Assembly: GCA_903847315.1 (NCBI GenBank)
Contig: CAINDG010000026.1
Location: forward strand, 1 to 64,000
Direction of reading: 5' to 3'
Source: an uncultured Planctomycetota bacterium
Lineage (GTDB): Bacteria > Planctomycetota > Phycisphaerae > Sedimentisphaerales > UBA12454
Length of the DNA: 64,000 nt
The notes under the pieces are model-generated. The model did not search any database, was not told the DNA's origin, and was given only the letters and a program-made list of their open reading frames with translations. Both the position numbers and the translations under genes were made by a program. Shown one piece after another: positions 2 to 9,043 of the stretch (within the stretch, counting starts at the first letter, position 1; every line of letters starts with the position of its first letter).

Positions 2-256
2 ATCTGTTTTATTTTGACGGCTACAAACATTGCCCTCTTTATTCATCTGGCCGGACATGAGAAATCCGGGCAACACGACAGCAGCCATTGTCCGATTTGT
101 CAGAATTTAATTATAAATAAAAATCCGATTCTTTTATCCTCCCCCGTAATAATCAGCGGATTTGATAAAATTGTCTATACCATCGATTATATTTTTGTTA
201 TTTCACCACCAACTATTCAATTCCAATCGCCTTATTTAAGAGCGCCTCCTCTTTAA
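2..256 (+). CDS. Small His/Cys protein, 5' end outside window
   Basis: The reading frame is open to the left edge, so the start and probably a signal or membrane segment lie outside. The visible part has a hydrophobic stretch, then a short motif HDSSHCPICQ (two His, two Cys spaced CxxC) and ends in LRAPPL. This pattern resembles small DUF2946-like proteins often seen near metal transport genes. The zinc/manganese importer begins about 100 bases downstream on the same strand, which fits a metal-related role. No function can be assigned from sequence. The family link is a recollection of motif style rather than an alignment. Confidence 0.55.
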   Translation: MCFILTATNIALFIHLAGHEKSGQHDSSHCPICQNLIINKNPILLSSPVIISGFDKIVYTIDYIFVISPPTIQFQSPYLRAPPL

Positions 257-6934: not shown

Positions 6935-8029
6935 TTACGGCAGGAATTTCGCCGTATTTTTAAGTTTGCGAGGCAGATAATCTTTTACAACAAAATCTAG
7001 GCCGTGCTTGGCGAAGGCCTGCTGTTCGACACGAACGCCCATATTCAGCATTTGATTTATCGCTGCCTGCCAGGGTTTGTGATGTTTTACGAAGGGGTCG
7101 TTTTTCAGGGCGTCCTTTGCACGCTTTATATCCACGTCTTTTAATGGGTGCGTAGGCAGCTTATAATCGATAATATCCTGTGGAGTTACGCCGAGGAATC
7201 TTGACTTCGGGACGCAGAAGAATTCGTTTAAGTGAGCGGAATTGCCGGAACCGACCTTCAGCGTTCTGTAAATGTTAAAGTAGCCGTAAGGGTCGCCATC
7301 GACAAACGCGTAAACTGGAATCCTGAGTTTGTCGGATAGTCTGCGGATAAATCTTCTGCATGCGCGGGTAGGAACGCCGCCCATACTGATAAGGATGCAA
7401 TTGTTTTTTTCCCAGTAGTCGTACTTGACGAGTCTTTGAAAGGCGCCTGCTGTTTCAATGGCGAGAATGAATTTGGCGTCGCTTGAAAAGTCGAGGTCCT
7501 CAACGTCAATCGGAATGGAATACGCCCCGGAGCCGAAGCGTGTGCAGTCGATTTTGAGTTTGTTTCCCTTTGAATCGGAGTCGATGACGATGAGCCTGCC
7601 GGCGACTTCGCCGCCTTTTTCTTCCGGGATGAATTTTAACTGCTCACGGTTTACGCCGAACATCGCTTCGATATCGTCCATTATCGTGTCCGATTCGGGC
7701 TGCTCGGCAAAGCCCGCCTTGCCCCAGTTTTTCGAGATGTAATATGCCTCCCTCTTCGTGGCCATATTGTTTGCTTCAATAAGCTCCTTCGAGAGCGACA
7801 TCATCTTAAGAGTCTGGGCGAAACTCTTTACGGTGCTTACAGTTAAGGTCCTGACTTTGTTTTTGCCGAGGATTTCGAAATGCCCGTCGTCAGAGTGATA
7901 TTTGACATTGCTGAGCGAACGGACAGGAGTGGACATAGTCGGCTTCTGCTTTTTCAAAATCTTGTCCTGAATGGACCTGGCGGTGTTTTTGATTTTTTCC
8001 GCGACGGCTACATCAGTCTTTTTGGTCAT
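6935..8029 (-). CDS. DNA topoisomerase VI subunit A (Spo11-like)
   Basis: Catalytic DNA-cleaving subunit of type IIB topoisomerase, 364 residues. The 5Y-CAP domain shows the tandem tyrosines of TKREAYYISK, Y96/Y97, one of which should form the DNA link. The Toprim metal site is visible as glutamate in LAIETAGAF and the DGDPYG motif. The C-terminal PHPL-like segment (THPLKDVDI) also fits. Type IIB enzymes are typical of archaea and plants but occur in some bacteria, including planctomycetes. The ATPase subunit B, normally adjacent, is not seen in this window: the 600 bases upstream hold an RNA gene and repeats. Confidence 0.93.
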   Translation of the reverse strand: MTKKTDVAVAEKIKNTARSIQDKILKKQKPTMSTPVRSLSNVKYHSDDGHFEILGKNKVRTLTVSTVKSFAQTLKMMSLSKELIEANNMATKREAYYISKNWGKAGFAEQPESDTIMDDIEAMFGVNREQLKFIPEEKGGEVAGRLIVIDSDSKGNKLKIDCTRFGSGAYSIPIDVEDLDFSSDAKFILAIETAGAFQRLVKYDYWEKNNCILISMGGVPTRACRRFIRRLSDKLRIPVYAFVDGDPYGYFNIYRTLKVGSGNSAHLNEFFCVPKSRFLGVTPQDIIDYKLPTHPLKDVDIKRAKDALKNDPFVKHHKPWQAAINQMLNMGVRVEQQAFAKHGLDFVVKDYLPRKLKNTAKFLP

Positions 8030-8201
8030 TTATTACGACTCCCTGAAAATATAAGGGGAAATTTTCCATAACTTAACATACATAATCTAAGGCGTAAAAA
8101 AATGTAATTCAAGCTTAAAGTTTTTCTATTTTTCGCTAAAAATGGCTTGACAGGGCTTTTAAACTTTGATTTTATAGGATGTGTGGGTAATGTAAATTAC
8201 A

Positions 8202-8230
8202 TTGACTTTGTTCCTTAAAATTGATATAAT
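8202..8230 (+). promoter_or_regulatory. Strong sigma70-type promoter for small RNA
   Basis: TTGACT at 8202-8207 and a perfect TATAAT at 8225-8230 are separated by exactly 17 bases. Transcription should start near 8237. There is no open reading frame downstream on this strand, which points to a non-coding transcript. Confidence 0.8.
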
Positions 8231-8236
8231 GCTAAA

Positions 8237-8489
8237 GTTGTAAAACGGCTGCATAAAGCAGTTTAAACGAAAACCTCGGCGAGGCTGTGTCAAAACAGTG
8301 GTTTCCCCCCAGCCACTTTGACCGTCTCGCCATTTTTAAAGTTCCTTAGGGGACTTTATAAGAGTCGGCGAGAGTTTTCATAAATGACGGGGCTCCCCAG
8401 CCGCGTCACTATCTCGCTGAAAAAACCTCGGCGAGGCAGGTGCAATAGGTGGTTTCCCCCCAAGCCACGTTGTCCTGCTTGCCTTTTTT
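8237..8489 (+). ncRNA. Candidate small RNA with three C-rich hairpin loops
   Basis: A predicted transcript of about 250 nt. After a short 5' hairpin (CTGC 8249-8252 with GCAG 8258-8261) come three related stem-loops. Hairpin 1, 8278-8331: GGCGAG/CTCGCC outer, GTCAAA/TTTGAC middle, GTGG/CCAC inner, loop with six C. Hairpin 2, 8365-8420: a 9-bp outer stem, TGACG/CGTCA inner, GGC/GCC top, loop TCCCCA. Hairpin 3, 8430-8483: long outer stem, GTGG/CCAC inner, loop with six C, followed by six T. A small 8-bp hairpin lies between the first two (8338-8357). I see no resemblance to tmRNA, SRP RNA, RNase P or 6S RNA. C-rich loops could pair with G-rich ribosome binding sites or bind a protein. Confidence 0.75.
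8430..8489 (+). terminator. Intrinsic terminator formed by third sRNA hairpin
   Basis: The outer stem pairs 8430-8440 with 8474-8483 (about ten pairs with one G bulge) and is followed at once by TTTTTT at 8484-8489. This marks the 3' end of the small RNA. Confidence 0.75.
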
Positions 8490-8506
8490 ATGCGCAGAAT
8501 GAAAAA

Positions 8507-8630
8507 ATCCTAAATCCTAATACCTAAACCCTAAACAAATCCGAATGACCCAAATTCAAATGGTTTTGAAAATTTGAGAATTAGAAGTTTGAATTTGTTT
8601 AGAATTTAGGATTTGGTGCTTAGGGTTTTT
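8507..8630. repeat. Imperfect AT-rich palindrome between sRNA and yjbQ
   Basis: The left arm has repeated units such as CCTAAATCCTAA and CCTAAACCCTAAACAAAT. The right arm carries their complements (TTTGTTTAGAATTTAGGA, GGTGCTTAGGG), around a centre near 8563. The whole can fold as one long imperfect hairpin. It looks like a degenerate MITE-like or extragenic palindromic element and may act as a two-way terminator. Confidence 0.55.
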
Positions 8631-8632
8631 AT

Positions 8633-9043
8633 TTACTGGCCGGTTATCCGGACGTTGACGGTTCTTTTCCTGGGGCCGTCGAATTCGCAAAAATAAATTC
8701 CCTGCCAGGTGCCGAGCTGCATTTGGCCGCCGGTTATTATTACTGTTTCGCTGCAGCCGACGATGGAGCTTTTGACGTGAGCGTCCGAATTGCCTTCGGA
8801 GTGCTTGTAGCCGTCCCTGTTTTGCGGCACAAGTTCGGAAAGCGTAAGCAAAATATCGTGTACGACATCCGGGTCGGCATTTTCATTAATGGTAATAGCC
8901 GCGGTTGTGTGCGGACAATAAATTATAACTTCGCCGTCGGATATGCCTGAATCGGCAAGGGCTTTTTCAACTTTACCCGTAATATCGACCATGTCGCAGC
9001 GTTTGTTTGTGCTGACTGTAAATGAGTTATTAAAAATCTTCAT
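8633..9043 (-). CDS. yjbQ: YjbQ/UPF0047 family protein
   Basis: A 136-residue protein matching the YjbQ family along its full length. The conserved IYCPHTTAAITINENADPDV near residues 43-62 and the late GTWQGIYFCEFDGPRKR near 112-128 are both clear. Members form trimers with a His-rich active site and have been reported to have a secondary thiamine-phosphate synthase activity; the true cellular role is unclear. It lies eight bases downstream of argS and is probably cotranscribed with it. Confidence 0.93.
   Translation of the reverse strand: MKIFNNSFTVSTNKRCDMVDITGKVEKALADSGISDGEVIIYCPHTTAAITINENADPDVVHDILLTLSELVPQNRDGYKHSEGNSDAHVKSSIVGCSETVIITGGQMQLGTWQGIYFCEFDGPRKRTVNVRITGQ

Follow-up and report, generated by a model that had tools for sequence, protein, structure and literature searches.

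A small RNA gene between the genes for topoisomerase VI subunit A and YjbQ

The DNA analyzed here is a 64,000-nucleotide stretch (the window) of contig CAINDG010000026.1 from an uncultured planctomycete of the order Sedimentisphaerales (class Phycisphaerae), in which the segment 8202-8489 had been predicted to carry a promoter and three related hairpins with C-rich loops and to encode a new small RNA (sRNA). Our results indicate that the sRNA gene is real and founds a new family, as judged from its independent promoter, its covarying structure, its terminator, its wide conservation and its absence from Rfam. The features named in the original prediction were recovered at the locus: the promoter matches the consensus at 11 of 12 positions and carries an extended TG, the region is free of genes, and three hairpins with C6, C4 and C6 loops are followed by a T6 terminator (Table 1). 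The predicted folding energy of the 252-nt stretch is -100.2 kcal/mol compared with -70.6 +/- 5.1 for shuffled sequences (z -5.8; none of 200 shuffles was as good), and the C-runs of all three loops have a predicted unpaired probability of 1.00.

The gene for topoisomerase VI subunit A (6935-8029, minus strand) lies to the left and is divergent from the RNA, and the gene for YjbQ/UPF0047 (8633-9043, minus strand) lies to the right and is convergent with it; beyond YjbQ follow ArgS, RsfS and H+-pyrophosphatase. The gene order YggS - topoVI-A - RNA - YjbQ - ArgS is maintained over much of Sedimentisphaerales. With one neighbour divergent from the RNA and the other convergent with it, this arrangement speaks against a leader or attenuator at this place. 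A structured RNA with conserved compensatory changes is what a cis-acting leader, riboswitch or attenuator would look like, but YjbQ is convergent both in the window and in the conserved arrangement of the order and the hairpin transcript enters no coding region, and we consider such a role extremely improbable.

Two other readings of the locus were rejected. A coding locus does not agree with the lack of any plus-strand open reading frame (ORF) of at least 50 aa between 8072 and 8722, nor with the covariation and the insertions and deletions in relatives; within the predicted transcript, no uninterrupted reading from an ATG exceeds 37 codons, and the one of that length had not reached a stop codon where the examined stretch ended. 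An RNA encoded on the minus strand was dismissed since G-U outnumber A-C combinations by 35 to 15 and both the promoter and the T-run are on the plus strand.

Two side observations concern the surroundings of the gene. Topoisomerase VI subunit A (Spo11-type) is mainly an archaeal and plant enzyme, and its gene keeps its place next to the RNA across much of Sedimentisphaerales. Positions 8500-8630, which lie between the RNA gene and yjbQ, hold an AT-rich imperfect inverted repeat (AAATCCTAAATCC ... GGATTTGGTGCTTAGGG), of which we found no second copy within the window; similar motifs are present at the equivalent position in genomes G006 and G010.

Table 1. Features of the sRNA locus (R1, covariance model built from 17 copies).
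Feature	Position	Strand	Support
Sigma-70-type promoter TTGACT-17-TATAAT	8202..8230	+	Same type of element recurs in most relatives
5' mini-hairpin GGCTGC-ATAAA-GCAGTT	8247..8263	+	Hairpin with varying stem sequence at this place in relatives
Hairpin 1, conserved family unit	8278..8331	+	R1 match 8268-8337, 90.5 bits; covariation
C6 apical loop of hairpin 1, presumed pairing seed	8305..8310	+	Invariant in alignments; predicted unpaired 1.00
Small linker hairpin AAAGTTCC-TTAG-GGGACTTT	8338..8357	+	
Hairpin 2, decayed copy, C4 loop 8395-8398	8366..8419	+	R1 only 2.5 bits, E = 1.2
Hairpin 3, second good copy, C6 loop 8456-8461	8430..8483	+	R1 match 8420-8489, 69.1 bits
T6 tail, intrinsic terminator built by hairpin 3	8484..8489	+	
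ATGCGCA motif just 3' of terminator	8490..8496	+	In 37 of 60 members, TGCGC at most 14 nt 3' of the T-run

A single hairpin with a C-rich loop is the conserved unit

Reading the loci of relatives, we found that most carry one hairpin, with a promoter on its 5' side and a convergent YjbQ gene on its 3' side, in the pattern AACCTCGGCGAGGC-AGTGTCAA-...-GTGG-TTYCCCCCC-AG-CCAC-TTTGAC-CG-TCTCGCC-TTTTT. The usual form comprises ~100 nt, with a 5' mini-hairpin followed by a single terminator hairpin whose loop is C6-8, and in most relatives a TTGAC[A/T]-16..18-TATA-like promoter is positioned ~70-95 nt upstream of the hairpin. The triple form is confined to the genome of the window and close relatives, being complete in G003 and partial in G011; in G003 the middle copy, at the place equivalent to hairpin 2, retains C6. 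The sequences thus indicate that the conserved family unit is one C-loop hairpin and not three, and that the three loops reflect a lineage-specific tandem amplification rather than the design of the family. The idea that the three-hairpin shape is the hallmark of the family was therefore given up. The relatedness of the three hairpins held in part: hairpins 1 and 3 are, by their scores, homologous copies, whereas hairpin 2 is a decayed copy (Table 1). A T5 run (8333-8337) follows hairpin 1, and termination could occur there by itself.

Structural conservation was assessed in alignments made with MAFFT, with the structure set by hand (A1, A3 and A4), in which a slight misalignment of the inner stem in some rows of family f1 lowers, and does not raise, the pair counts. 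Across 50 diverse copies, 92.8% of the cells pair and compensatory double changes occur at 12 of the 16 base pairs (114 cells), giving a covariation score of 0.455 as against 0.158 +/- 0.012 for shuffled and 0.036-0.113 for slid controls. The outer stem switches wholesale between orders (GGCGAGG/CCUCGCC, GGCCAGG/CCUGGCC, GGGCCGG/CCGGCCC). Five consecutive C residues of the loop are invariant in all 50 sequences, the C-run is 6-8 long in nearly all of them, and its predicted unpaired probability was 1.00 in each of the 26 RNAs folded. Given that the rest of the hairpin is free to change provided that pairing is kept, the loop is likely the active part. A second hairpin of varying sequence is located 10-25 nt before the unit on its 5' side, and 31 of 52 such hairpins fold better than 95% of shuffles.

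These data bear on the possibility that the element is merely an unusually conserved transcription terminator or intergenic DNA element with no function as RNA. The T-run 3' of the hairpin and the conserved TGCGC motif that follows it would fit such an element, but no plus-strand gene enters the hairpin, the upstream gene being divergent, the element has a promoter and a 5' hairpin of its own, and a terminator would need neither invariant C residues in the loop nor one defined bulged stem; the same loop is moreover kept in unlinked copies. We regard this explanation as quite unlikely.

Two further sequence elements flank the unit. The TGCGC(A) motif behind the T-run is present even in members from other orders, and might signal termination or pausing or act at the DNA level as a site. 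On the 5' side of the hairpin, the single-stranded leader AACCUC (8270-8276) and its equivalents (ACCAC in family f4) are strongly conserved; the leader might offer an additional place for pairing, with ribosome sites of the GAGG type.

The RNA is nearly universal in one order

A search at the DNA level detected the element in 16 of 40 relatives, including every other genome of the same genus. Covariance searches were run with R1, with a wider model (R2) and with a model that includes distant members (R3), the E-values of R3 being rough owing to a short calibration; most of the genomes compared are probably metagenome-assembled. R1 matched in 129 of 161 Sedimentisphaerales genomes and in 61 of the 66 of good quality, so that a homologous structure, whose absence from close relatives would have spoken against the sRNA, was found. 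R2 and R3 extended the unit to families f9 and f23, which belong to other orders of the class, with E-values down to ~1e-18; some of the R3 matches lie in the training set of that model, but those in G227, G237 and G256 (~1e-17) do not. Class-wide, the unit was detected in 124 of 397 genomes; the closed 4.25-Mb genome G033 is one with a strong match. Family f3 and genome G009 gave marginal matches only, the unit having been lost or having diverged there, and among 392 sampled genomes of the phylum none outside the class gave a convincing match. A contig scan with a 17-base pattern returned mostly chance matches, 3 of the 21 loci checked being true members, one of them from a bacterium named as Sedimentisphaerales.

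Genomes of f9 and f23 often carry 2-3 unlinked copies (e.g. G349), and unlinked copies retain the same loop. Such extra copies fit action in trans.

Additional hairpins were noticed along the way. Some genomes of family f7 (G101, G047 and G102; loci L203, L204 and L206) have a second full copy of the unit away from YjbQ. Hairpins weakly related to the unit, with shorter C-runs in the loop and a GGCGAGG/CCTCGCC stem, were seen at L199:2808-2872, L202:2477-2540(-), L200:1085-1145, L197:2750-2811 and L198:2394-2455(-), in each case directly behind a gene ending ...AENI.KFGI and after a CCACGG-type small hairpin. They possibly constitute a second sibling family derived from 3' untranslated regions (UTRs).

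Pairing with G-runs as the probable mode of action

We propose that the gene encodes a free-standing, sigma-70-transcribed, trans-acting sRNA specific to Phycisphaerae that uses its C-loop to pair with G-rich leaders of mRNAs, and we assign this reading a probability of roughly 0.6. That the C-loop RNA is transcribed, acts in trans and pairs with G-runs is what we infer; by analogy, G-run pairing is the most likely and best supported mechanism. In the typical product of ~100 nt, the 5' mini-hairpin would be followed by AACCUC as a short unpaired leader and then by a long hairpin with interruptions, which doubles as intrinsic terminator and displays an unpaired run of 6-8 C as a rigid seed. Acting in trans, this seed would bind G-runs located in the leaders or ribosome-binding sites of mRNAs and thereby alter their translation or stability. 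In the genome of the window, amplification of the unit in tandem would place three hairpins, the middle one decayed, in one potential 250-nt transcript, providing two or three seeds, or short and long forms should the T5 of hairpin 1 terminate.

Scans of G-runs before start codons revealed no conserved target. Outside the RNA itself, TGGGGGGRAA occurs five times in the genome; no occurrence precedes a substantial gene, and one lies immediately 5' of an ATG that opens a very short ORF. Sites of the form G6-N3-10-ATG numbered 27 in genome G000 compared with 7 in the control, and 295 over 12 genomes compared with 205 in the reversed control. G5 or longer before the first ATG was found in 4 of 310 ORFs of at least 120 codons in the fetched loci, none of the four being shared; with such runs this rare before starts, a C-run seed would at least be selective. 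Three points weigh against pairing with G-rich leaders: the excess of G6-N3-10-ATG sites may reflect merely the ordinary Shine-Dalgarno bias, the sites present in several genomes of family f1 include no recurring orthologue except one weak pair (33.8% identity), and the C-loop could equally bind a protein.

The last point leads to an sRNA whose C-rich loop captures an RNA-binding protein and so titrates or recruits it, acting as a sponge in the manner of CsrB/RsmZ with C-runs in place of GGA, for which the triple form would mean higher capacity. An invariant loop on a stem that is free to change while pairing is kept would suit such an RNA, as would the tandem multiplication in some genomes. 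The single loop of most genomes, however, would make an inefficient sponge, nothing points to a known bacterial protein that binds C-runs, and the plus strand has no GGA loops for CsrA. Moreover, a multi-loop sponge is not the ancestral design, because the family unit has one C-loop hairpin. We consider a protein-binding role unlikely, though less so than the other alternatives to a base-pairing sRNA.

Taking the base-pairing sRNA further, one may envisage a class-wide post-transcriptional regulon of Phycisphaerae run by a single-seed C-loop sRNA that was multiplied in some lineages, as unlinked siblings or as tandem multi-hairpin forms; we put this tentative extension at slightly below even odds. 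If true, the 6C strategy would have been invented here independently, and the RNA would be an early example of a defined trans-acting sRNA family in planctomycetes, a phylum for which literature searches returned no characterised sRNA family. From the loop follows a pairing rule that can be tested directly (C6-8 with G-runs), and with the alignment and covariance model in hand annotators could add the family immediately.

Comparison with known RNA families

A match to a known Rfam family would have contradicted the claim of novelty, and none was found at the RNA. Rfam 15 detected only three tRNAs above the gathering cut-off in the window, permissive scans gave chance-level matches only at the RNA (8180-8510), and scans of 13 loci with diverse members gave no match at the RNA. 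Identity with SRP or 6S RNA was rejected, as regular SRP (C18) and 6S (C33) genes are present elsewhere in the genome.

Small RNAs with C-rich loops are known from several phyla. LhrC of Listeria, which exists in several copies, and the RsaE/RoxS-type sRNAs pair with ribosome-binding sites by means of C-rich (UCCC) loops; to our knowledge, these are short CU-rich motifs and not a pure C6-8 loop, and are limited to Firmicutes. RepG of Helicobacter pylori, an epsilonproteobacterial sRNA, acts via the mixed C/U loop of its terminator hairpin. The planctomycete RNA likewise has its C6-8 loop on a hairpin bearing a T-run, but no sequence relation between the two is evident. RepG pairs with the G-repeat in the tlpB leader (PMC8295292).

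The closest likeness is to 6C/B11 of Actinobacteria, which is of the same type, a free-standing sRNA of ~100 nt whose hairpins expose 6-8 unpaired C in their loops. 6C RNA has two C-loop hairpins (PMC4046766), and in M. abscessus B11/6C represses eccB4 through loops that pair with a G6 tract at the ribosome-binding site, as established with mutated loops and compensatory changes (PMC10470900). Unlike 6C, the planctomycete RNA ancestrally has one C-loop, on the terminator hairpin, together with a 5' mini-hairpin that is not C-rich, and its sequence and stems differ; two hairpin loops of C6 or longer are not its norm, the two good C-loop hairpins of the window deriving from tandem duplication. 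Membership in 6C (RF01066) was rejected after its model gave no match at E<=10 in the whole genome, nor within 8180-8510 or at the RNA in the 13 diverse members. A deeply diverged true homologue of 6C would share the size class and the C6-8 hairpin loops, one of them terminal, but the unmatched model, the one C-loop hairpin in place of two and the absence from the sampled rest of the phylum make common descent very unlikely.

Together, the comparisons suggest a new RNA family of a functional kind already known, which by analogy would work like 6C and RepG while being a member of neither. An RNA that is nearly universal in one order and absent from Rfam would then parallel 6C/B11 and RepG independently.
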